Shown here: positions 4,383-35,435 of the stretch, piece by piece | Position numbering within the stretch: the first letter of the stretch is position 1 | Layout: each line of letters opens with the position of its first letter | Source of the DNA: Rahnella aceris | GTDB lineage: Bacteria > Pseudomonadota > Gammaproteobacteria > Enterobacterales > Enterobacteriaceae | Direction of reading: 5' to 3' | Assembly (NCBI RefSeq): GCF_011684115.1 | Contig: NZ_JAADJV010000001.1 | Span: 1,674,001 to 1,738,000 of the forward strand | DNA: 64,000 nucleotides | The notes under the pieces: model-generated | Seen by the model: only the letters and a program-made list of their open reading frames with translations | What the model was told of the DNA's origin: nothing | The model's database searches: none | Translations under genes and position numbers: made by a program

Positions 4383-5288
4383 CTACGTCAGACGGAAGCG
4401 CGGATCCGGCATCGGGGTATCCGGCAGTTGCGTCTGGTTGTTCATCTCACGCAGGTTAATCTCTACGTTGGTGCACATAGCATCCAGCGGTAGATGGTTA
4501 TTGGCCAGACCAAAAGGCATTTCCAGCTCTTCCGCCAGCGTATCAAGCGACAAAAAACTATAAGAAATAAAACCTGACACCAGCAACGTCATGTAGTGCA
4601 AATCCACCACCAGTGCAAACGGCAACAAACTACAGAACAGATATACCGTCCTGTGCAGCAACAGACCGTACGCAAACGGAATCGGCATGCTAACGATGCG
4701 TTCACACCCACCGACCACTTGTGAAAGCTGTAACAGCGTGGAATCCATATGGGTATAGACAATATCCGACAGTTCACCGCTGCGGCGTCGTTCAGCCAGC
4801 CATTGTGACAACCGCAGCTGAACCATATTTGTCGGCGCACGGCGCGACAGAATATCTTCCGCATCGTCACCCAGCAAACGCTGAAGATCCGGACGCGGAT
4901 CACTGTGACGCAACTGGTGCTTGAGGCTGAAACAGAACGCCAGCAGCAACGCAGTCACGCGCTGCGCCTCTCCCGGACACACAGCCATCACCTGACTTTG
5001 TAATGTCCGGCAGGCAATCAGCAAACCACCCCATAATTGCCGCGCCTCAATATAACGTGCGTACGCGACGCTGTTACGAAAGCCGAGGAAGATCGCAATA
5101 GAGACACCGAGCAGGCTGAAAGGCGCGAGTGTGAGTTTCACGCCAAGGGTCTCATACCAGGGAAGAGTGAGAATGGCGGCAAGTGACATCAGTAAATTGA
5201 GACTCAGACGGAACAGAATACTGGGCAGGACAGAACCATGCCAGGCGAACAAACGCAAGAACCAGTGACGAGGGGGACGGATTATCAT
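4383..5288 (-). CDS. yneE: bestrophin-like anion/cation channel YneE
   Basis: A 301-residue inner-membrane protein of the bestrophin/UPF0187 (RFP-TM) family. The start MIIRPPRHWFLRLFAWHGSVL matches the E. coli YneE N-terminus; the frame continues 22 codons upstream, but that extension is basic and not conserved. Hallmarks are LTLAPFSLLGVSIAIFLGFRN and ARYIEARQLWGGLL in the first half, and the C-terminal segment LEMPFGLANNHLPLDA, which contains the acidic/neck motif. Family members are pentameric ion channels; ion selectivity here is unknown. Length agrees with the family (about 300). Confidence 0.88.
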   Translation of the reverse strand: MIIRPPRHWFLRLFAWHGSVLPSILFRLSLNLLMSLAAILTLPWYETLGVKLTLAPFSLLGVSIAIFLGFRNSVAYARYIEARQLWGGLLIACRTLQSQVMAVCPGEAQRVTALLLAFCFSLKHQLRHSDPRPDLQRLLGDDAEDILSRRAPTNMVQLRLSQWLAERRRSGELSDIVYTHMDSTLLQLSQVVGGCERIVSMPIPFAYGLLLHRTVYLFCSLLPFALVVDLHYMTLLVSGFISYSFLSLDTLAEELEMPFGLANNHLPLDAMCTNVEINLREMNNQTQLPDTPMPDPRFRLT

Positions 5289-5612
5289 TTTGTGCAGGTG
5301 CTTTATGCAGGTGAAGCGTTTTTTTTTGCGATTCTGGCAAATAAACCTGCCCATGCAAAGGACAATTTTGTGACACCGGTAACATTTTTTCTGAAACTTA
5401 CAGTTCTCCGTTACAACTCGCCGGTTATCCCATTCACAACGCTGATTTATTCCCTCTGCAACCTCAAGTTACTGCCCGTTAAGGTCGATAATAGTAACAG
5501 GAGGAAAGTAAATAAAGTGGCCAAAATTCCCCCATAACTGACTTCCTGTAACAATTCGATCAGATGCTCCGTAAAGATGCAACTCACCCTACTGACGTGA
5601 AGGACTGGAGCC
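5289..5612. other. intergenic region upstream of yneE and the small peptides
   Basis: About 320 bases without a convincing gene. It must hold the yneE promoter (minus strand) and the promoter for the small membrane peptide at 5613. Two short frames on opposite strands overlap here, but neither has support (see rejected items). Confidence 0.5.
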
Positions 5613-5705
5613 ATGAACATAATGTTAAGTATTGCGATGATCACAGGTATTGCCGCATGGTTCTTTATCAGCTCATCAATAAATGATATCCGAAACGATT
5701 ATTGA
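5613..5705 (+). CDS. small membrane peptide, 30 aa, ending -NDY
   Basis: A 30-residue frame with ACTGGAG six bases upstream of the ATG. It is a single hydrophobic helix (MLSIAMITGIAAWFFISS) followed by a polar tail SINDIRNDY. It is followed by a GC-rich hairpin that could terminate it. The second tiny membrane peptide at 5912 ends in the same three residues. No known family is recognised; it may be a stress-related small membrane protein. Confidence 0.5.
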   Translation: MNIMLSIAMITGIAAWFFISSSINDIRNDY

Positions 5706-5714
5706 ATGATTCAC

Positions 5715-5764
5715 AACCCCGCCGGGCGGCATCCCGTCCGGTCATTTTCAATCATGGCGGGGTT
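5715..5764 (+). terminator. hairpin after the 30-aa peptide
   Basis: AACCCCGCC (5715-5723) pairs with GGCGGGGTT (5756-5764), enclosing a second small hairpin (CCGG..CCGG). AATTTCATTGTCTTTTTC follows. It is a plausible terminator for the 5613 peptide. Confidence 0.55.
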
Positions 5765-5882
5765 AATTTCATTGTCTTTTTCATCTCTTAAATTAAACTT
5801 TTTATAACGTAACGTTTTGAAGCAATAATTACGCTTACTTCACGCCGAAATAGATTGTCAATTTATGTCAATCTGAGAGAGC

Positions 5883-5912
5883 ATGGCGGAAAATTTAAGC
5901 ATGGTGTACTGA
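5883..5912 (+). CDS. 9-codon leader frame overlapping the 33-aa peptide
   Basis: MAENLSMVY then TGA. GAGAG lies 5-6 bases before its ATG. Its stop (5910-5912) overlaps the next ATG (5912-5914) in the arrangement TGATG, which is typical of translational coupling. It may be a real leader or chance. Confidence 0.35.
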   Translation: MAENLSMVY

Positions 5913-6013
5913 TGAAAATTCTTTTTATTGTACTCATCGTTCTGGCGGTCATCGGGTTGTTGATCTGGCTGATACTCCGGTCAGCCGCGAAGGATGCTGA
6001 TAATGATTATTAA
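5912..6013 (+). CDS. small membrane peptide, 33 aa, ending -NDY
   Basis: A 33-residue protein: MKILFIVLIVLAVIGLLIW then a polar tail with RSAAKDADNDY. It is essentially one transmembrane helix with a short charged C-terminus. There is no ribosome site of its own; instead a 9-codon frame stops across its start codon. Size and layout resemble small stress or type I toxin-like membrane peptides, but no family is recognised. It shares -NDY with the peptide at 5613. Confidence 0.5.
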   Translation: MKILFIVLIVLAVIGLLIWLILRSAAKDADNDY

Positions 6014-6392
6014 TCATTTTCCCCTGCCTGCGCATGGATCTACAGGCTTCATAAGAATTACCGGACAATAAATATCCGAACGCCAAACTTAATACAAATT
6101 AAAAACAATGGTGTCAGATTGTAAAAACCCGGGTGAAATAACTCGCATGATGATTAACAAGCTAATTAAAAGCTTTCATGCGAATAACAACGGTAAAAGT
6201 ACGCCTTAAACGTAAAAAACGGATGTGTTTCTGATGTTATTTATTAAGTGAAATAGGAAGAAGAAATAATTAGCAGTTATTAATACAAATTAATCAGTTA
6301 GAAAATAATATTTTCATTGTGTTCAATGGAGGTGATAACAGGGCAAACTTTTTGCTCACCCCCTGCACCCGCTTTATCCGCCAGATTCTCCC
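6014..6392. other. AT-rich intergenic region between the small peptides and fliE
   Basis: About 380 bases, very AT-rich up to 6310, with no supportable gene or clear hairpin. A short frame that begins near 6317 runs antisense into fliE and looks spurious. Confidence 0.5.
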
Positions 6393-6707
6393 CTACACCG
6401 ACATGTTCATCACATCCTGATACGCTGCTACCAGTTTATTTCTTACCTGGACCCCAAGCTGCAATGAAATCGAGGATTTTTGCAGATCGACCATCACGTC
6501 GTTCAGACTGACACCGGGAACACCCATCTCCAGCTTTTCAGATTCCAGTTTTGCGTTGTTCTGGGTCTCGCTGATCTTACCTAATGCCGCTTTTAATTCG
6601 CTGGCAAAACCGGCCTCTGATGCGGTATCGGTCTTTGGTGCGGCACCGGCCTGGATAGCCGTGGCCTGCATCTGCTGTAAAACGCTCTCAATGCCTTGAA
6701 TTGACAT
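6393..6707 (-). CDS. fliE: flagellar hook-basal body complex protein FliE
   Basis: FliE (104 aa) links the MS ring to the proximal rod and is needed for export of later rod and hook substrates. The start MSIQGIESVLQQMQA matches the usual FliE N-terminus and has CCGGAG upstream; the frame runs 19 codons further but without conservation. The C-terminal VSLNDVMVDLQKSSISLQ and VRNKLVAAYQDVMNM are the FliE signature. It is transcribed divergently from the fliFGHIJK operon, as in E. coli and Salmonella. Confidence 0.95.
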   Translation of the reverse strand: MSIQGIESVLQQMQATAIQAGAAPKTDTASEAGFASELKAALGKISETQNNAKLESEKLEMGVPGVSLNDVMVDLQKSSISLQLGVQVRNKLVAAYQDVMNMSV

Positions 6708-6841
6708 GCTTTCTCCGGTTATCGGGGTGTCGGTGAACAAATGGCTTCTTTCATGGAATGACACCCTATCACATCAGTTTTTTCCTAAACGCGGTAATTG
6801 AACCTAAAAACCATGGCTTATCGGGCCATTAACTTTGCGTT

Positions 6842-6857
6842 AAGCGGCAAATAATGG
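6842..6857 (+). promoter_or_regulatory. possible FlhDC binding half-sites in the fliE-fliF gap
   Basis: AAGCGGCAAATAATGG resembles the loose FlhDC box (AAYGG-N2-3-AAATAGCG). It lies 130 bases upstream of fliF, where the class 2 flagellar promoters of fliE and fliF sit in related bacteria. This is a by-eye match only. Confidence 0.35.
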
Positions 6858-6989
6858 CTCACCTAGAAAATAGGCCTGCCTGTATGGAGGACTGAAAAAT
6901 GTCACGCTTCAACGATTGCGCACTTGGGAGTCTGTTTTGTTAAGAGACAACATGAACACCACCATTCAACAGCTAAATAGGGATCTTGT

Positions 6990-8699
6990 ATGAGTTCCGC
7001 AATAGCCGGCGCAGAAACCCCTCCAAGCGGTTTTACTGCGTTGCTTAATCGCCTGCGCGCCAACCCAAAAGTTCCTATCGCCATCGCTGCTGCGGCAGCC
7101 GTGGCTATTGTTGTTGTCATGATGCTGTGGGCTAAGCAGCCTACTTATAAGGTGCTCTTCAGTAATCTCGGTGACCAGGATGGCGGCGCCATCGTCACTC
7201 AGCTGACCCAAATGAACATTCCTTATCAGTTTTCTGATAACGGCGGTGCGTTGCTGATCCCTGCCGACAAAGTGTATGAAACGCGTCTGAAACTGGCGGC
7301 TGCCGGTTTACCTAAAGGCGGCGCGGTTGGTTTTGAATTAATGGATCAGGAAAAATTCGGCATCAGCCAGTTTAGCGAGCAGATCAACTATCAGCGCGCG
7401 CTGGAAGGTGAGCTCTCACGTACCATCGAAACGCTGGGCCCGGTCAGCAGCGCCCGTGTCCATTTAGCCATTCCTAAGCCTTCCTTATTTGTCCGCGAAC
7501 AAAAAAATCCTTCCGCCTCTGTGACCCTGAATTTACAGCCGGGGCGTGCGCTGGATGACGGCCAGATCAACGCCATCGTTTATATGGTGTCGAGCAGTGT
7601 TTCCGGCTTACCGCCTGCGAACGTTACCGTGGTGGATCAGAGCGGTCATCTGCTGACGCAATCTGATAACAACGGGCGTGACCTGAATGCTTCCCAGCTG
7701 AAATATGCCAATGAAGTGGAAGGTCGTCTGCAACGTCGTATCGAGTCCATCCTGCAACCTGTGGTCGGCAACGGTAACGTGCATGCGCAAATCACCGCGC
7801 AGATTGATTACGCCAGCCGTGAACAGACAGATGAAAACTATCAGCCAAATGGTTCAGCCGATAAAGCGGCTGTGCGGTCGCGTCAGCTAAGCACCAGCGA
7901 CCAGATTGGCGCGTCATCGGTCGGCGGCGTGCCGGGTGCACTGAGCAACCAGCCTGCTCCGGCAGCAACGGCACCGGTGACGACCCCGCCAGCGGCAAAC
8001 AATGCAAATGGCACACAAAATCAGACCGGCAATAATGCGCAAAATGCAGCCACCACCGCGAATGCCAATGTGCCGTCCAACCGTCGTCGTGATGAAACCA
8101 CCAACTATGAAGTTGACCGCACCATCACGCATACCCAGCACAGCGCCGGTGCCGTTCAGCGTCTGTCTGCGGCGGTTGTCGTTAACTACCAGGTCGGACC
8201 GGATGGCAAAGCGAAGCCGCTGACTGACGATCAGTTGAAGAAAATTGATGATCTGGTACGCGAAGCGATGGGCTTCTCTCAGGAACGTGGCGATACGCTG
8301 AACGTGGTGAATACACCGTTCAACGAAGCGGCTGACGATTCCGGCGAGCTGCCGTTCTGGAAACAACAGGCGTTCTTCGATCAGTTACTCAATGCAGGTC
8401 GCTGGTTACTGGTGCTGATTGTGGCCTGGCTGTTGTGGCGCAAGATGGTTCGTCCGATGCTGCGCAAACAGCAGGCAGAGAAAGATGCCGCAGCCGCAGC
8501 CGCGCTTGCCGCCACCATGCCACAGCCTGAAGGCAGTAAACCGGTCAAACTCAGCAATGACGAGCTGGAAAAACGTAAACGTTCACAACAGCGTGTCAGT
8601 GTTGAAGTTCAGACCCAACGTGTGCAGGAGCTGGCCGATAAGGATCCTCGTATCGTCGCCCTGGTTATCCGCCAATGGATGAGTACCGAACAACCATGA
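6990..8699 (+). CDS. fliF: flagellar MS-ring protein FliF
   Basis: FliF (569 aa) forms the MS ring in the inner membrane and is the base on which rotor and export gate assemble. The N-terminal transmembrane helix ([19 protein letters not shown]) and a C-terminal one ([11 protein letters not shown]) frame the periplasmic region, with the YscJ-like ring domain ([41 protein letters not shown]) after the first. A low-complexity Ala/Asn/Thr linker sits around residues 310-370. The cytoplasmic tail ([15 protein letters not shown]) binds FliG. The stop overlaps the fliG start (ATGA). Confidence 0.97.
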
Positions 8700-28357: not shown

Positions 28358-30040
28358 GTGAATATAAACGTCGCTAGTTTGTTAAACGGGAATTACATCC
28401 TGTTATTATTTGTGGTTTTGGCACTCGGTCTGTGCCTGGGGAAAATTCGCCTGGGTTCCGTTCAGCTCGGAAATTCTATCGGCGTATTAGTGGTTTCGCT
28501 GCTTTTGGGTCAGCAGCATTTCAGTATTAATACTGAAGCGCTCAACCTCGGCTTTATGTTGTTTATTTTCTGCGTAGGCGTCGAAGCAGGGCCAAACTTT
28601 TTTTCCATTTTCTTCCGTGACGGCAAAAATTATTTCATGCTGGCACTGGTGATGGTCGGCAGCGCCATGTTACTGGCACTCGGACTCGGACGTTTGTTCG
28701 GCTGGGACATCGGCCTCACCGCCGGGATGCTCGCGGGTTCAATGACCTCAACCCCGGTTCTGGTCGGCGCCGGAGACACGTTGCGTAATACCATGGGCGG
28801 TAACAAGATGCTCGGGCCTGAACTGGATAACCTGAGCCTGGGCTACGCCCTGACCTATCTCATCGGTCTGGTGAGCCTGATTTTCGGCGCACGTTATCTG
28901 CCGAAGCTGCAACATCAGGATTTGCCTACCAGCGCCCAGCAGATCGCGCGCGAGCGTGGCCTGGATACCGACAGTAAACGAAAAGTGTATCTGCCGGTGA
29001 TCCGCGCCTATCGCGTGGGGCAGGAGCTGGTGGCCTGGGCTGATGGTAAAAACCTGCGTGAACTGGGGATCTATCGTCAGACTGGCTGCTATATAGAGCG
29101 AATCCGCCGTAATGGCATCCTGGCGACACCGGACGGCGACGCCGTATTGCAGGTGGGCGATGAGATCTCACTGGTCGGTTATCCGGACGCACATTCACGC
29201 CTCGACCCGAGTTTCCGTAACGGTAAGGAAGTGTTTGACCGCGACCTGCTCGACATGCGTATCGTGACCGAAGAAGTGGTGGTCAAGAATAACCACGCGG
29301 TCGGCAAGCGTCTGAGTCAACTGAATCTCACCGATCAGGGCTGTTTCCTCAACCGCGTGATCCGCAGTCAGATTGAAATGCCTATCGATGACAGTATCGT
29401 GCTGAATAAAGGCGATGTGTTGCAGGTCAGCGGCGACGCAAAACGGGTGAAAAGCGTGGCGGAGCGTATCGGGTTTATCTCCGTACACAGTCAGCTCACG
29501 GATTTGCTGGCCTTCTGCGCCTTCTTTATTGTCGGCCTGATGATCGGCCTCATCACTTTCCAGTTCAAAAACTTTAGTTTTGGCATCGGTAACGCCGCCG
29601 GACTGCTGTTCGCCGGGATCATGCTCGGCTTCCTGCGAGCCAACCACCCTACTTTCGGTTATATCCCGCAGGGCGCGCTAAATATGGTGAAAGAGTTTGG
29701 CCTGATGGTGTTTATGGCGGGTGTCGGCCTCAGTGCCGGTGCGGGTATCAATAATGGTCTCGGCGCAATAGGCGGCCAGATGCTGCTTTCCGGCCTGATT
29801 GTCAGCCTGGTGCCGGTGGTGATTTGCTTCATCTTCGGGGCATATGTTTTACGCATGAACCGCGCTTTGCTGTTCGGAGCCATCATGGGTGCACGAACCT
29901 GCGCCCCGGCGATGGAAATCATCAGCGACACGGCACGCAGTAACATTCCGGCACTCGGTTATGCAGGAACCTATGCCATTGCTAACGTATTACTGACGCT
30001 CGCCGGTACGCTAATCGTCATCATCTGGCCCGGTGCATGA
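28358..30040 (+). CDS. ybjL: putative transport protein YbjL (AspT/YidE family)
   Basis: YbjL (560 aa) belongs to the aspartate:alanine exchanger (AAEX) family with two membrane blocks flanking two RCK-C (TrkA-C) domains. First block: [42 protein letters not shown] domains near residues 205-375 ([35 protein letters not shown]). Second block: [19 protein letters not shown]. Substrate unknown. Start codon is GTG. A hairpin terminator follows, then rybB. Confidence 0.93.
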
Positions 30041-30061
30041 CGTAACTCATTGAAGTGTAAT

Positions 30062-30101
30062 GGGGCAAAAAGAAATCAATATTTTTTTAAATTTTTGCCC
30101 C
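30062..30101 (+). terminator. probable ybjL terminator
   Basis: GGGGCAAAAA (30062-30071) pairs with TTTTTGCCCC (30092-30101), a 10-bp stem with an AT-rich 20-base loop. It is the last element before the rybB promoter. Confidence 0.65.
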
Positions 30102-30108
30102 CTCGCAC

Positions 30109-30135
30109 GAACTTTTAAAGTTAGCCAGAGTCTTA
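30109..30135 (+). promoter_or_regulatory. sigma-E promoter of rybB
   Basis: GAACTTTT at 30109-30116 matches the sigma-E -35 (GGAACTTT), and TCTTA at 30131-30135 resembles the -10 (TCTAA/TCTGA). The spacing is 14 bases and the first base of RybB is 7 bases later. RybB is known to be sigma-E dependent. Confidence 0.8.
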
Positions 30136-30141
30136 ATTAGT

Positions 30142-30222
30142 GCCACTGCTTTTCTTTGAAGTCCCCAAATTTGGAGAGCCCGTCAATCCCGCCTTATTAG
30201 GTTCAAGATTGCCGGGTTTTTT
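30142..30222 (+). ncRNA. rybB: small RNA RybB
   Basis: The 5' end GCCACTGCTTTTCTTTGA is identical to E. coli RybB, including the 16-base seed that represses outer-membrane protein messages through Hfq. Then GTCCCC and GAGCCCGTCAATCCCGCC, and the rho-independent terminator CCCGTCAATC / GATTGCCGGG with TTTTTT (30217-30222). E. coli RybB is 79 nt; this is about 81. A sigma-E promoter sits directly upstream. It lies after ybjL, in the same neighbourhood as in E. coli. Confidence 0.93.
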
Positions 30223-30327
30223 CTTGCCCGAAATTCATACCTTGTGCATAAGGCATATTGAGTACTTCATTTAGATCCGTTGCGAGACAAAGCAGCGGGA
30301 AGAAATGCAAGTGTAATGTCCCGCCAG

Positions 30328-30582
30328 CTAGGCAACTTCAATCTGATATAGCAATTCCACGAGCGATATCGCGCTAACATTATCCCAGCGAAGATAGCTA
30401 TCCAACGAACTGGATCCTGAATCTCTTCCCAGTACTCTAAGACAGATTGCTTGATGGTCTTGTGATGCAGAGACCCATACAACCCCACTCTGCTGTGCAA
30501 AATAAGTAGACCCCTTCAGGCCTTCTCGTTGTATGCGCTTCTTCCATGTATCAACTTTTTGCGTACTAATTTTTAGGCTCAT
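30328..30582 (-). CDS. hypothetical island protein, 84 aa
   Basis: Unrecognised small protein starting MSLKISTQKVDTWKKRIQRE. GGGAT lies 4-5 bases upstream of the ATG at 30582. The sequence looks cytoplasmic (a basic N-terminal helix, then mixed strands). The frame stays open upstream through seven GAATT repeats to an ATG at 30654, which raises the possibility of repeat-controlled expression. It is the first gene of the AT-rich island after rybB. Function unknown. Confidence 0.55.
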   Translation of the reverse strand: MSLKISTQKVDTWKKRIQREGLKGSTYFAQQSGVVWVSASQDHQAICLRVLGRDSGSSSLDSYLRWDNVSAISLVELLYQIEVA

Positions 30583-30604
30583 AGTTATCCCATATCCGAT
30601 AATC

Positions 30605-30639
30605 GAATTGAATTGAATTGAATTGAATTGAATTGAATT
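30605..30639. repeat. seven perfect GAATT tandem repeats
   Basis: A 35-base simple repeat, seven exact GAATT units, 22 bases upstream of the ATG at 30582 (minus strand). Unit length is not a multiple of three. It overlaps the coding frame if the upstream ATG at 30654 is used. Confidence 0.97.
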
Positions 30640-30915
30640 AATGAATGTCGGCATCCAGACTTGATAAAGATATCTTCATATCAGTGTGATATAACCTCAT
30701 TCATCTGTGAACCAAATTCATAGGTGTATGTGATGGGCACTGGTTGATCAATATCAATGGAACTTATTCAGTTAAACTAATCATCTGATTGCCCAAGGAC
30801 ATGATTTAAATTCCCACCGCAGGCAACAGTTTTGAGTGTGTTTTTTCAGATATTGAAGAGATTACATATGTAAGAATCACACCAGTTTTGAATTGACAGA
30901 ATAAAGGATTATGAA

Positions 30916-32613
30916 ATGGATTTATTTGTCACATTAGTACTCTTGTTAGCCCTACTTTCTCCAATCCTGACTGTTACCCTAGTCAAGAAAAGCAAAAAGC
31001 ATAAGGTGGAGGTCGATAACCTTATCGCAAGTAATACTTCCCTCGCAAATGAATTATATGATAGCCAAGAGAAGCTGAGCCTGATTGAAGAAAATTTTGC
31101 TCAAGCTGTTCGAGAGCATTCTGAACTTGAAGGAAAAGCAGCTCCCTTATGGCAGTATCAAAGACTACATGATGCAGTCCAAAATGCTGAGAAAAAGATA
31201 AAGACTGCTGAGTCAATAGCCAAAGAAAAAATTGATGAAGCCCAAATAAAGGCCGCCAGAGCTATAAGTGAAGCTCATAATCAAGCTCGGCTCACAATAA
31301 ACAATGCAAACAGTGAAGCAGTAGCAATCACTAAAGACGCGCGAGATGCTCGTTTGAAAGCCAAAGAACGGCTTGATAATGCCAACAGTAAAACCGATGA
31401 GCTGATATCTAATGCAAATGATAATGCGATGAAAATAATCGCTGATGCAGAGATCCGAGCAAAAGAGATTGCTGGTTCTGCCTATGAAGCGAAAGAGTTT
31501 GCTGAAACATACCAGGCTGTAGCCAAATCCATGAAAAATAAAATTGAAGGATATGGCGATGAATGGATAGTTCCCAACCGCAGCGTTTTAGATGAAATTG
31601 CAGACAATTATGAGTTTACGGATGCAGGAAGAGAACTTCAAAAAGCGCGAGAGTTAACTAAGTCTCTTATTAATACAAGTAAAGCCGCAAGCTGCGAGTA
31701 TGTTGAAACCAATAGGCGCAACACTGCAATTAAATTTGTATTAGATGCATTTAATGGGAAAGTTGACAGTACTCTTTCTAAAATCAAGCACAACAACTAC
31801 GGTAAACTTTCACAAGAAATTAAAGATGCATTCCAGTTGGTGAATTTTAATGGCTCAGCATTTCGGTCTGCTCAGATCACCGACATCTACCTTCAGGCCC
31901 GACTTAACGAACTTAAGTGGGGTGTTGCAGTAAATGAAATCATGCTTGAAGAAAAAGAGGAGCAAAGACGAATTAAAGAACAACTGCGTGAAGAAGAAAA
32001 AGCCCGCCGTGATTACGAGAAAGCGATAAAAGAAGCCGAGAAAGAAGAGAAAACCATACAGCAAGCCATCGATAAAGCGACACAAGAGTTAATGCTTGCA
32101 AGTGAAGAACAACGCTTAGCTCTTGAGAAAAAATTAGCTGAGCTTCAAACCAAATATGAAGAAGCCGAGGCCAAGAACCAAAGAGCAATTTCAATGGCCC
32201 AGCAAACACGTGCAGGCCACGTATATGTTATCAGCAATATTGGCTCTTTCGGTGAACACGTATACAAAATTGGGATGACACGTCGTCTAGAACCATTAGA
32301 CCGCGTTCGTGAACTTGGTGACGCCAGCGTTCCATTCTCATTTGATGTACATGCCATGATTTACAGTGACGATGCGCCTTCACTAGAAAACCATTTGCAT
32401 AAAGTATTCAATGACAGGCAAGTGAACAAGATTAATGCTCGTAAAGAGTTCTTCAATGTCAGGATAAAGGATATCAAATCAACTATTGAAGATATGAGCA
32501 TCAGTGCGCACTGGACAATGTTTGCGGACGCCAAAGAATATAGAGAGTCCTTAGCTATTGAAAATGAGCGTTCAGCAGCAATCACTGCAAATGAGGAGCT
32601 TGTGGTTGCTTAA
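30916..32613 (+). CDS. SNIPE-like membrane-anchored DUF4041/GIY-YIG nuclease
   Basis: A 565-residue protein. Residues 1-23 are a membrane helix (DLFVTLVLLLALLSPILTV) followed by KKSKKHK, then a long Ala/Lys/Glu-rich coiled coil to about 215. Residues 215-340 (YGDEWIVPNRSVLDEIADNY, LSQEIKDAFQLVNFNG) look like DUF4041. A second coiled coil (EEKEEQRRIKEQLREEEK) links to a C-terminal T5orf172/GIY-YIG nuclease domain from residue 435: HVYVIS, YKIG (450-453), GMTRR, SLENHL (Glu 491) and KEFFNV. This order is that of SNIPE, a membrane nuclease reported to cut phage DNA as it enters. RBS AAAGGA. Domain calls are by eye. Confidence 0.8.
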   Translation: MDLFVTLVLLLALLSPILTVTLVKKSKKHKVEVDNLIASNTSLANELYDSQEKLSLIEENFAQAVREHSELEGKAAPLWQYQRLHDAVQNAEKKIKTAESIAKEKIDEAQIKAARAISEAHNQARLTINNANSEAVAITKDARDARLKAKERLDNANSKTDELISNANDNAMKIIADAEIRAKEIAGSAYEAKEFAETYQAVAKSMKNKIEGYGDEWIVPNRSVLDEIADNYEFTDAGRELQKARELTKSLINTSKAASCEYVETNRRNTAIKFVLDAFNGKVDSTLSKIKHNNYGKLSQEIKDAFQLVNFNGSAFRSAQITDIYLQARLNELKWGVAVNEIMLEEKEEQRRIKEQLREEEKARRDYEKAIKEAEKEEKTIQQAIDKATQELMLASEEQRLALEKKLAELQTKYEEAEAKNQRAISMAQQTRAGHVYVISNIGSFGEHVYKIGMTRRLEPLDRVRELGDASVPFSFDVHAMIYSDDAPSLENHLHKVFNDRQVNKINARKEFFNVRIKDIKSTIEDMSISAHWTMFADAKEYRESLAIENERSAAITANEELVVA

Positions 32614-32850
32614 TATTTATGCTTTTTCATAAAGCGGCTGCCTGGCCCTTCCACGGAACCGGAAGTGTCTGGTAACCGTGCTCGGTGAAGACCACGCAGG
32701 GGACATCAGCTCAACCAGCGGGTTGAACTGACAGGTATCGAGGTGATGCCACTTGCGACGCCGGTGAACATGTATGGAGCAGGATTTACCGCAGGTTGGG
32801 GGGCAGTTGTGTGTGCCCAGCAATGCCGACAATGTCCGTCACAGAACAGG
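32614..32850 (-). pseudogene. ISL3-family transposase fragment, frameshifted
   Basis: On the minus strand two frames together read like the N-terminal part of an ISL3 transposase. Frame one gives HRRRKWHHLDTCQFNPLVE (family: HRRxWRHLDTCQF), and a second frame continues ADVPCVVFTEHGYQTLPVPW (family: VPRVxCPEHGVxxVxVPW). No inverted repeats or full-length transposase are seen. It is a short decayed remnant. Confidence 0.65.
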
Positions 32851-32941
32851 ATTTTTCAACAAGAGAAAGAAACTGAACCTGCCACGGTAAAGACAGGATA
32901 AGGATAGAGGGATTTTTGTCCATGAAAGTGCTCTGGGTTGG

Positions 32942-33334
32942 TTAGGTACTTATACATTTTTCTGGCACCAAACCATACTCTCCAGAATGTTTGAGCGCCC
33001 AGCACCAGCAGTTTAGAGACTAGATGACAGAATTTTCTCGCTGGACCTGACTGAGAGTTCATGGGCCATATAGTCTTCAAGACAGATAACTTCTTTAGAA
33101 CTGAGGGGGAGAAAATATTTGTTGGGGAGCACATCCGGCTTTCCCTGAGGTGAGTGTTATCAATACCCACCCCGGATATTCAAGGTCACAATGGCTAATA
33201 ACGGCAGTATCATTTTTCGTTATCAAAATAGGGTCAGGAAAAGTAGAACTGTAATTTCTGATGACAACAGCAGCATTACTCAAGTGGTACCTCCCATTGT
33301 TCGGTGAACAACCAAATCCTACAATAGCCACCAC
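32942..33334 (-). pseudogene. tandem SH3-domain protein, broken
   Basis: Domain 1 (frame from 33334) contains AVVIRNYSSTFPDPILITK, then EYPGWVLITLTSGKAGCAP, the pattern of a bacterial SH3 domain (ends in G-x-x-G-W-V-P; here a Cys replaces the Trp). Downstream, a second frame gives DYMAHELSVRSSEKI, then a stop, and a third frame gives WCWALKHSGEYGLVPEKC ending at TAA. Together they are a second SH3 domain split by frameshifts. Function of the intact gene is unknown. Confidence 0.6.
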
Positions 33335-33393
33335 AACGGGGGAAGACCCTTTTGTATACAGTTAAATATCCCCTTCTTTGGAGGGAATCACGC
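33335..33393. other. leader of the integrase remnant
   Basis: Short AT-rich stretch with GGAGGG at 33380-33385, an intact ribosome site for the ATG at 33394 although the gene behind it is broken. Confidence 0.4.
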
Positions 33394-33585
33394 ATGGCAG
33401 TCCGCAAAGTGACAACTGGTCAATAAATGTGTGAACGCTACCCTGCCAGCCGTTCTGGCTGCAGGGTGTCGAAGATGTTTGCAACTAAAGGAAAAGGTAT
33501 ACCATAGATGAAAACGAGAATAGGTCTGAGTCTAGCCAGGATGACACAACTAACTTTGATATAACCTTAACGGGTAAGTGATACA
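33394..33585 (+). pseudogene. P2-type phage integrase, N-terminal remnant with stops
   Basis: From ATG 33394 the frame reads MAVRKVTTGQ, a TAA stop, then MCERYPASRSGCRVSKMFATKG. This follows the start of P2-like tyrosine integrases (MAVRKL.GKW.CECYP.GR.G.RVRK.FATKGEA). Later the frame slips to DENENRSESSQDD-like residues. The catalytic domain (R..H.R..Y) is not present. RBS is intact. It suggests a former P2-like prophage or satellite at this site. Confidence 0.65.
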
Positions 33586-33708
33586 TCTGCCTATTAGGTT
33601 TAATATAACCCACCGGTCACAATGCTTTCATTGCTTGTGGAATAATATTTTAGCGTACTTTAATTGTATAATCTCATTGAGATACTGAGTGCCAGATAAA
33701 ACTTATCA
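33586..33708. other. short AT-rich gap before the FRG gene
   Basis: No gene or hairpin seen. Contains the 3' flank of the FRG gene and the end of the integrase remnant. Confidence 0.4.
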
Positions 33709-34512
33709 CTACCAGCGCTCATTACTATGACTTTCAAAACTGGTGCTGTTGGCATAACAAAACCCATCAATGTCGGGGAAAAGAGTAAATTGCCTGATGT
33801 CGAAAACCTTTTCGAGCATGACTAAGCACTCCCTCTTCATGTCCGGTGTAAGAGCAATTAGTTTTACCCATTGCGAATTTTTTTGGAATAATAAGCTTCC
33901 CTCTAGTTCATCGCTAACTCGGCTATATAAGAATTGTGCATTCTGAGCGGCAATCCTTTTCGTCACAACAGGTGGTTGCCATAATCTTGGGCACACCTCC
34001 AAGACATCATCTGGTTTCGGATCGCCTGAACCAAATATTTCATTGTAAGTTCGTAGTTCAGGCCTTCCCTCAAAGCCACGAACGCTTGCCCAATGCAGAC
34101 CGAATAATAGTCCGATTTTATCTCTTTCAGAATTACAGGCAAACCAGAGGGCAACAAGCATATTTCTTGAAACGTCTACCAAACGTGTTGCTGCACCATG
34201 GTGTTGAAGCTTTGCCAGTAATTCAAAATCACAAAGCACTCGCCCATTTTCGTAATGATATCCTTGGTGTTTCGCACTACTTAGAAGCTCCCTTTCATAG
34301 TCACGCATACTCATTTCCGAAGGAAGATAACTTTTATCTTTCGCGAGCCGTCTATATGCCCCGCTATGAATAGGCCACTCAATGTTGCCTTGACCTCTCC
34401 AAAGATAGATATTTCGTGCGCCGTCTTTGTCCACAGAAGCAAACTCAATAATCTGCCAAAATTCATCAGGTGCTATCAATGGGCCGAATAACTCCGTTTC
34501 GATTAATTCCAT
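33709..34512 (-). CDS. FRG domain-containing protein
   Basis: A 267-residue protein of the FRG-domain family, named for conserved Phe and Arg-Gly. Visible signatures: NIYLWRGQGNIEWPIHSGAYRR (W-R-G-Q, and W.L.SGAYR), LLAKLQHHGAATRLVDVSRN (family: LL..QHHG..TRLLDWT.N, with Val-Ser instead of Trp-Thr) and ALWFAC. FRG proteins are common in defence islands and toxin-like loci; the catalytic role is unknown. Its start overlaps the end of the upstream ABM-like gene by 10 bases, so they are probably co-transcribed. No signal peptide. Confidence 0.85.
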   Translation of the reverse strand: MELIETELFGPLIAPDEFWQIIEFASVDKDGARNIYLWRGQGNIEWPIHSGAYRRLAKDKSYLPSEMSMRDYERELLSSAKHQGYHYENGRVLCDFELLAKLQHHGAATRLVDVSRNMLVALWFACNSERDKIGLLFGLHWASVRGFEGRPELRTYNEIFGSGDPKPDDVLEVCPRLWQPPVVTKRIAAQNAQFLYSRVSDELEGSLLFQKNSQWVKLIALTPDMKRECLVMLEKVFDIRQFTLFPDIDGFCYANSTSFESHSNERW

Positions 34513-34823
34513 AGTTTACCCACCACACCCTCAACCTCATGCTGAAACACATAAGGATCAGACAGCAATTCAAACTGTTCATCGTCCTGATAGGTCACGG
34601 CAACATGATAGTCATCACCGGCAAAGGCTTTTACTGCTTCGATATCCCGCCAGTAGGTTGCCAGGAAAAAATGCTCCCAGTCCCCTTGCGAAACGCTTTT
34701 GACCAAAGCGCCTAAATTGCCTTCGATACCCTGAGAATGCTGGACGCCCGTCAGTTGCAGATGTTCAGCAAATCCTGCTGCATGTTTTACGGGTACGCAT
34801 CCGTGCCATGTTCTAACTATCAC
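34503..34823 (-). CDS. antibiotic biosynthesis monooxygenase-like protein
   Basis: A 106-residue protein with a ferredoxin-like ABM fold: start MIVRTWHGCVPVKHAAGFAE, GNLGALVKSVSQGDWEHFFL, TYWRDIEAVKAFAGDDYHVA. The pattern (TYW.D.EA..AFAG.D...AV) is seen in stand-alone ABM-like proteins of unknown substrate. It lies upstream of and overlaps the FRG gene. No specific function can be given. Confidence 0.75.
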   Translation of the reverse strand: MIVRTWHGCVPVKHAAGFAEHLQLTGVQHSQGIEGNLGALVKSVSQGDWEHFFLATYWRDIEAVKAFAGDDYHVAVTYQDDEQFELLSDPYVFQHEVEGVVGKLWN

Positions 34824-34908
34824 GTTTTCATCTCCTCAATCATATTCACTTCAATAACATAGCGAAAATTTAACGTGAGTTGAAGAGCATCTGAACGTGT
34901 TTCAGCGC

Positions 34909-35274
34909 TTATTTCTCATTCTCAATCACCCGCACCAGCGTGCCGTCGATATCGATCATTGCGCCCATTCTCAGCCCGAATGGCTGCATTTTTGGCAGAT
35001 GAATGCACGGATGGGATTTTTTATCCTGCCCGATTCCTGCCGCCATAAACGCATCAAAAAGTGCATCGGCGTCATCGACGCGCAGGCAGCAGCTGAACCA
35101 GCTGGTGAGCGGGTCGAGATCCGTGTGCAGGAAGAATTCCAGCGTAAGAGTTCCGCGGGTCATGATCAGCCAGCCGTCATCAACGTAAGTGGTAATGAAT
35201 CCAAAGCTGCCATAAAAGCACTGGGTTTCTTCGAAATTACGGGAAGGAAGATTAGGGGTGGCGTAGTCGGTCAT
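34909..35274 (-). CDS. bleomycin-binding protein, Tn5 Ble-like (VOC family)
   Basis: A 121-residue VOC-fold protein. Start MTDYATPNLPSRNFEETQCFY corresponds closely to Tn5 Ble (MTDQATPNLPSRDFDSTAAFY), then GWLIMTRGTLTLEFFLHTDLDPLTSWFSCCLR (Ble: LDPLASWFSCCLR), and the end DIDGTLVRVIEN. Such proteins sequester bleomycin-type glycopeptides. It is a chromosomal relative; resistance is inferred. A longer frame to 35373 is not conserved. No transposon sequence surrounds it. Confidence 0.88.
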   Translation of the reverse strand: MTDYATPNLPSRNFEETQCFYGSFGFITTYVDDGWLIMTRGTLTLEFFLHTDLDPLTSWFSCCLRVDDADALFDAFMAAGIGQDKKSHPCIHLPKMQPFGLRMGAMIDIDGTLVRVIENEK

Positions 35275-35435
35275 CCTGGCCTCATCAGCAGTAATGCATT
35301 GAATGTTACGCCATGATGCCTGAGTGGGAAGGATGAGGAAAGAAGGAAAAATCAGTGAGTCATCCCCTGCCAACTGGCAGGGGAATCAGACACATGGCTC
35401 GCGGTTCCTGAAACTAACAGGGGCGCGCCGGCTTA

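Follow-up and report, generated by a model that had tools for sequence, protein, structure and literature searches.

A predicted SNIPE-type defence gene with a long stalk in the probable remnant of a P2-like prophage at rybB of Rahnella aceris

The gene at 30916-32613 of the window (the whole 64,000-nucleotide stretch of Rahnella aceris DNA analysed here) is, as judged from its sequence, a homologue of SNIPE (PD-lambda-1), a known kind of protein, and it appears to be prophage cargo that stayed while the prophage died. Our main reading, to which we give a probability of roughly 0.75, is that a P2-like temperate phage carried this long-stalk SNIPE as cargo in its cI-int slot, that the phage integrated at the rybB terminator and later disappeared apart from SNIPE and fragments of cI and int, and that the protein works like the published SNIPE. 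The evidence is computational and consists of the domains and conserved residues, the prophage remnants, the slot, the traits of the clade and the different decay of cI and SNIPE; the history is clear from these, and function in anti-phage defence is what we infer. The gene and its parts were assigned as follows.

30916..32613, + strand: SNIPE (PD-lambda-1) homologue ORF, 565 aa, ATG start, no internal stops
30916..30987, + strand: predicted N-terminal membrane helix, residues 1-24, then lysines (hydropathy, and helix in the AlphaFold2 model)
30988..31530, + strand: predicted helical stalk, residues 25-205
31078..31098, + strand: 7-residue insert, residues 55-61, one heptad long, absent from the six close relatives L002-L007
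31531..31905, + strand: DUF4041 region, residues 206-330
31906..32211, + strand: second helical stretch, residues 331-432 (AlphaFold2 model)
31915..31917, + strand: K334, aligned with W257 of the published SNIPE
32215..32496, + strand: T5orf172/GIY-YIG nuclease domain, residues 434-527 (Pfam)
32386..32388, + strand: E491, the equivalent of SNIPE E414 (alignment)

An earlier note on this DNA had given the ORF with correct coordinates (565 residues from the ATG) and had placed it next to rybB, and its start does lie 690 bases past the rybB end (30145-30225). The profile search and the structure prediction that the note had proposed were performed. With Pfam, DUF4041 (PF13250) matched residues 273-329 (E 1.1e-12), where the note had seen a DUF4041-like block, T5orf172 matched residues 434-527 (E 1.5e-17) and MUG113 matched residues 450-526 (E 1.5e-18), all above the curated cut-offs. 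Two PADLOC models of PD-Lambda-1 matched the ORF (E 7.2e-117 and 8.5e-113), with residues 125-557 aligned to profile positions 39-481 of 491 and residues 1-124 uncovered; the match to PHROG 1847 had an E value of 6.4e-129. The ORF is the sole DUF4041 match in the window's genome at E 0.001. Hydropathy in 19-residue windows exceeded 1.6 only for windows starting at residues 1-8 (maximum, 2.58 at residue 5), and this single peak, which is followed by lysines and is also helical in the model, agrees with the N-terminal membrane helix of the note; a single N-terminal transmembrane helix is given for 59% of the published SNIPE homologues. The nuclease motifs were all located in the order that had been described, namely YVI (437-439), YKIG (450-453), Arg (456/457/463) and Glu 491. 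E491 was invariant across a 31-sequence alignment, and E occupied this column in 52 of the 52 rows printed for it, of 53 tree rows. The full-length AlphaFold2 model (mean pLDDT, 80.6; pTM only 0.36) consisted of helices at 2-137 and 143-214, a helical domain to about residue 321, a helix at 323-394/397-432 and an alpha/beta domain at 434-526, and a separate model of residues 206-345 (the DUF4041 region) reached a pLDDT of 83.2 and a pTM of 0.78. The ranges 215-340 and 430-565 of the note fit these domains. Membership in the SNIPE family, which the note had proposed, thus stands on the PADLOC PD-Lambda-1 match, the presence of all domains and the equivalence of E491 to E414.

As the published SNIPE, we took the product of a gene annotated PD-lambda-1 in PhiR26_1 (500 residues; XSB42081.1), because nine residues named in the paper (E223, N250, L253, W257, E264, K305, I308, T319 and E414) stand in it where PMC13190303 numbers them. 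SNIPE was described as a membrane enzyme that cuts viral DNA during injection, E414 being its predicted catalytic residue and required for defence (Saxton et al. 2026, PMC13190303). Its association with ManYZ was reported for lambda-type targets, other siphophages having no need of ManYZ (PMC13190303); the window's host genome encodes ManY and ManZ. The order of membrane helix, DUF4041, helix and GIY-YIG domain is common to both proteins, which are 68% identical in the nuclease region and 39% overall. However, 205 residues precede a comparable point in the window protein and 117 in the published one, in accord with the earlier suggestion that the coiled coil may differ in length, and two anchors beside DUF4041 are 27 residues apart in the window and 39 in the published SNIPE (with WTVEGSRAEGKK). 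K334 and S299 stand where the published SNIPE has W257 and E223. The window lineage is P2-like phage cargo, whereas the published SNIPE is lambdoid phage cargo. The stalks differ also in their apolar period, which is a weak 3.5 in the published SNIPE and 3.62 in residues 86-205 of the window SNIPE (0 of 2,000 shuffles as strong). A period near 3.6 suggests a coiled coil that is straighter, or right-handed, compared with the heptad value of 3.5. We estimate that residues 86-205 would span about 18 nm at 0.15 nm per residue if the helix were continuous, and the model breaks it at 138-142. Note that two streptococcal PD-lambda-1 proteins with 98.5% identity were reported to differ completely in activity (PMC12322248), and therefore homology is no proof of activity.

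The phylogenetic tree was reconstructed from the DUF4041-nuclease core of 53 rows with ORFs from both strands; L012, L018, L027, L034, L036, L037 and L038 were left out of the alignment and the tree as near-duplicates or as ORFs that looked partial or mostly lacked the N-terminal part. The window falls in a 21-row clade (support 100/100 in the 53-row tree), which comprises Enterobacteriaceae, a Pantoea plasmid, two P2-like phage records, Chryseobacterium, Hymenobacter, a Synechococcus phage and a Marinitoga phage (MPV1, L111). MPV1 was omitted from the stalk, W257 and E491 counts, since its annotated protein has no N-terminal part; its tblastn match starts 57 codons before the annotated start. 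In all 20 clade rows whose N-terminal part is present, the point matching residue 205 is preceded by 174-205 residues, and the apolar period is 3.60-3.64, a strength reached by no more than 4 of 500 shuffles. Outside the clade, 69-158 residues precede this point in 31 of 32 rows, the exception (L096) having 190 residues with an uncertain start and a period that was not significant (86 of 500 shuffles). The DUF4041-side anchors are separated by 27 residues in 21 of 21 clade rows and by 36-43 in 31 of 32 rows outside, and the short flank is not quite a unique mark of the clade, as EJ-1 (L113), outside it, has 28. A period of 3.6 was likewise rejected as a unique mark, because L089, L090, L093 and L094 outside the clade peak at 3.63-3.70 (2-7 of 500 shuffles). 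Only stalk length and period together separate the long-stalk clade. The W257 position is K or R in 20 of 20 clade rows, in 11 of 32 rows outside and in none of seven in the clade of the published SNIPE. Since W257R and E223K enhanced SNIPE defence against Bas14 and are both frequent in homologues (PMC13190303), K334 may act in the same sense as W257R, namely towards stronger defence, as far as a single position can indicate. A length of 565 residues, considered as length only, recurs in 10 of 120 homologue clusters among the matches listed, and the two named ones among these clusters are Scandinavium. One Enterobacteriaceae genome (G412; L087 and L097) combines the two SNIPE lineages, one of its copies being long-stalk and the other falling in the clade of the published SNIPE.

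The gene had been placed in an accessory island by the earlier note. The location is indeed accessory; the island itself is to be amended to what appears, from the genes left in it, to be the remnant of a decayed P2-like prophage at rybB with SNIPE in the repressor-integrase slot. The features of the region are listed below.

30145..30225, + strand: rybB small RNA (Rfam RF00110, 83.8 bits, E 2.5e-15)
30226..34905: inserted island (blastn against rybB loci; tblastn of 12 same-genus regions)
30714..30893, + strand: remnant of the 3' part of a P2-like cI repressor gene, codons 139-198 matched, broken by stops (2 in 60 codons)
32633..33362: segment inserted after SNIPE and before the integrase remnant, with an 87% DNA match in two Rahnella plasmids
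33394..33501, + strand: broken 5' remnant of a P2-like integrase gene, first 36 codons, 1 stop (66.7% identity, E 1e-8)
33709..34512, - strand: FRG-domain gene, candidate second defence gene (Pfam FRG 6.6e-17; PADLOC PDC-S15 7.4e-32)

The rybB regions were fetched from 12 of 13 other same-genus genomes (G002 was without a RybB match). In several of these genomes, rybB is followed almost directly by the sequence that starts near 34906 of the window (in one genome, near 34519). In six of the 12 regions, no more than about 110 bases separate the end of the VOC gene (at 34909 in the window) from the rybB core piece, and in one of the 12 an ABM gene comes first and then VOC; therefore, 30226 to about 34905 (or about 34502) was regarded as an insertion. 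Inserts of about 1 to 8.6 kb were present at rybB in five of the 12 regions, the other seven being without a large insert. SNIPE had no tblastn match in the 12 regions, and DUF4041 had none in any of the 13 other same-genus genomes. Broken P2-like cI (61.7% identity to the cI of phage record 813R9, E 5.6e-17) lies upstream of SNIPE and broken int downstream, in the expected order and orientation. The 5' part of cI, including the promoter region, was not found in the window, and the window's genome has no integrase of P2-like type at E 1e-80 or better. The attachment core of related P2-like prophages has its counterpart in the 3' terminator region of rybB (about 30211-30230), where a 20-base stretch differs at four positions from the stretch after int in phage record KP12. 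A search for a second attachment site in 30001-35400 at up to five mismatches yielded only two weak minus-strand matches, one of which falls within SNIPE. The stretch that follows SNIPE was considered as an insertion element and matched Rahnella plasmid DNA only in part; the matching segment is beside an ISL3 transposase gene in one of the two plasmids. No link with SNIPE is claimed for the FRG gene, whose family is widespread (438 proteins) and which had no match in the 12 same-genus rybB regions, nor in L004 and L005. An AATTG tandem repeat (30601-30639, 7.8 copies) lies inside a 108-aa ORF without family match (30328-30654, - strand), and it is possibly phase-variable or a product of chance.

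Unbroken counterparts of this arrangement were found in phage records and in other genomes. Both 813R9 (Peduoviridae, an incomplete genome that continues into host DNA with its genes) and KP12 (likewise incomplete and with genes of P2 type, although the record itself says Vequintavirinae) have the order cI-SNIPE-int. Their DUF4041 proteins belong to the same subclade as that of the window, are 80-81% identical to it and have the same upstream cI, but they have 558 residues instead of 565, and cI and int are unbroken there. The 813R9 record runs from int into rcdA, which neighbours rybB in E. coli. Among six genome loci with at least 80% identity, cI and int were each matched in one piece at full or nearly full length on the two sides of SNIPE in four (L002, L003, L006 and L007; about 1 kb lies between SNIPE and int in L003), both were broken beside an open SNIPE in L004 (Enterobacter), and neither was beside SNIPE in L005. 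In L004 and L005, rybB was found at 0.6 and 3.1 kb, respectively, ahead of SNIPE; the far prophage end of the other four would fall beyond the fetched stretch. In the Pantoea plasmid copy (L042), only a 3' scrap of cI was matched beside SNIPE. The int-to-rcdA stretch of 813R9 was present at a coverage of at least 80% in 1,110 of 5,426 E. coli genomes, and its SNIPE gene in 163 of 5,426 (162 over most of the gene length), as counted by megablast, with which diverged copies may be missed. A SNIPE-int junction query was covered to at least 80% in 163 E. coli genomes and a cI-SNIPE junction query in 159; gene and junction counts come from separate queries, of which totals rather than individual genomes were compared. 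Two E. coli SNIPE matches were examined, and both were cI-SNIPE-int.

For the int-bearing genomes, the sample was nine matches in a list of 40 spread over the ranking, of which one names a DUF4041 gene and six were examined. The cI-int cargo of these six E. coli loci was a YdcA-like small gene or its twin (three loci), a KAP NTPase (one), one hypothetical gene (one) and two hypothetical genes (one), and only the KAP NTPase had a PADLOC match. This KAP-family P-loop NTPase (L104, 3649-4980) matched PDC-S20, with E values of 2e-171 and 1e-173 for the L075 and L104 genes. L075 is a same-genus P2-like remnant with cI and int and, between them, a KAP NTPase gene (5130-7456 from the rybB core piece) and a second gene; the ORF preceding the NTPase had no Pfam or PADLOC match at E 0.001. 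The slot genes of the E. coli rybB prophages L106 (4025-4969) and L107 (3218-4923), which had no PADLOC match at E 0.001 and some of which were judged by eye to have hydrophobic stretches, are candidate exclusion genes. In two unrelated phages, a DUF4041 gene also lies between a cI-type repressor and an integrase: Streptococcus phage EJ-1 (1051-5277), in which one gene separates SNIPE from int, and Marinitoga phage MPV1, with several genes on either side. In phage ES18 (L112, NC_006949; 1925-3454), the SNIPE homologue gp19, annotated "possible moron", is two genes before the tape measure gene gp21; with SNIPE so close to its presumed target gene, a phage might maintain matched pairs that tolerate each other.

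The decay of the neighbouring genes bears on whether SNIPE still serves the cell. Of the differences between the window and six copies from prophages or phages, a share of 0.50-0.54 fell on codon positions 1 and 2 in the cI remnant (60 codons) and a share of 0.29-0.32 in SNIPE, the latter being that of three control comparisons between unbroken cI genes (0.29-0.32). Fisher p for this contrast was 0.0010-0.0055 in all six comparisons, which are not independent, and the contrast is weakened because part of the divergence predates the decay; the copies compared are not close enough in DNA to gauge selection since then. Plain DNA identity was slightly lower in the cI remnant (0.68-0.76) than in SNIPE (0.76-0.79). 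The dN of SNIPE against nine relatives was 0.085-0.113; since dS was mostly saturated (2.4 in one case), dN/dS by region was used as a rough bound only. The codon constraint still visible in SNIPE is gone from the cI remnant, and SNIPE was therefore probably retained for the host. The same data tell against an intact but silent relic, that is, a gene whose protein could work but which lost the cI promoter, is unexpressed and has simply not decayed so far, as do the stops (three in 96 codons of the cI and int remnants, none in the 565 of SNIPE), the ribosome-binding stretch AAAGGA kept before the gene and the SNIPE genes of L004, open beside broken cI and int, and of L042, beside a mere cI scrap. 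Such a relic would fit the broken upstream cI, the 5' part of which was not found in the window, and the consensus scan, in which no sigma-70-like site was found between rybB and SNIPE (the scanned region had two such sites, where chance alone would give 5.8, and both were within the ORF). On balance, we consider it improbable.

Rather better, and only somewhat short of even odds, is the chance that SNIPE evolved as a superinfection-exclusion gene that protects the P2-like prophage from rival siphophages, its bacterial role being incidental. The cI-int slot of the E. coli copies, with both junctions counted above, points in this direction. Since the published SNIPE acted on no myovirus of the BASEL set (PMC13190303), a contractile-tailed carrier is not expected to block its own kind. 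However, SNIPE outlived the phage in the window and in L004, and apparently in L042. The exclusion and host-defence readings are compatible and differ only in who gains. A membrane-anchored homing or mobility nuclease of T5orf172 type, with no role in defence, is hardly credible: the nuclease domain is T5orf172, and viral T5orf172 and BRO-like proteins are numerous in the Foldseek list, under a best match named 'helicase', but the membrane helix, DUF4041 and nuclease stand in the order of the SNIPE architecture, the PADLOC PD-Lambda-1 match is near full-length, and there is no sign of independent movement, because the E. coli copies adjoin cI and int.

We return to SNIPE as P2-like phage cargo retained by the host. 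P2 reads its repressor and int from one promoter. In the lysogen, a SNIPE carried between cI and int would be read together with the repressor and would shield the cell from other phages; after integration at the rybB terminator, the prophage would have been lost except for SNIPE and the scraps of cI and int. The protein would be held in the inner membrane by its N-terminal helix, as for the published SNIPE, the long helical stalk holding DUF4041 and the nuclease in the cytoplasm; DUF4041 would bind the tape measure protein of siphophages and DNA during injection, and the GIY-YIG domain (E491) would cut the entering DNA. For the window protein, topology, expression, nuclease activity, defence activity and targets are those that we infer. 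A further proposal, which we put forward tentatively and consider doubtful, is that the long-stalk SNIPEs form a subtype with a function of its own. In it, a coiled-coil stalk that is stiff and almost straight (period 3.6) would set the reach of the nuclease from the membrane, and the fixed basic residue at the W257 position, together with the shortened DUF4041 flank, would make the recognition of siphophage tape measures broad and independent of ManYZ. P2-like phages, with their contractile tails, would carry SNIPE in the cI-int slot as an exclusion gene untriggered by their own entry, and bacteria would keep SNIPE after prophage death.

The protein kind and the hotspot type of place were already known, and the subclade traits and the record of SNIPE in the cI-int slot are what this analysis adds. 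Prophages at rybB with defence genes at set positions are a published hotspot (#29, Felsduovirus prophages in E. coli; PMC10121019), and P2 prophages are likewise reported at rybB, the element of E. coli B carrying retron Ec86 (PMC3032704). The window resembles hotspot #29 in this respect, but it is a remnant in another genus, and PD-lambda is absent from the main text and the list of scanned systems of PMC10121019. Similarly, K139-like phages of Vibrionaceae carry defence cargo between the repressor and integrase of a P2-related phage (PMC9122126); unlike here, the hotspot there is that of Vibrionaceae, and its E. coli P2 hotspot is between gpA and gpQ. In the main-text passages that we consulted, we found neither a description of SNIPE in the cI-int slot nor an assay of a SNIPE of the long-stalk lineage. 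SNIPE is added to the cargo of the rybB prophage slot. The position of K334/W257 and the shorter DUF4041 flank make the model of tape-measure recognition by SNIPE testable in the long-stalk lineage, and the same kind of gene, present in unbroken P2-like prophages and alone after prophage decay, provides a natural experiment on SNIPE.
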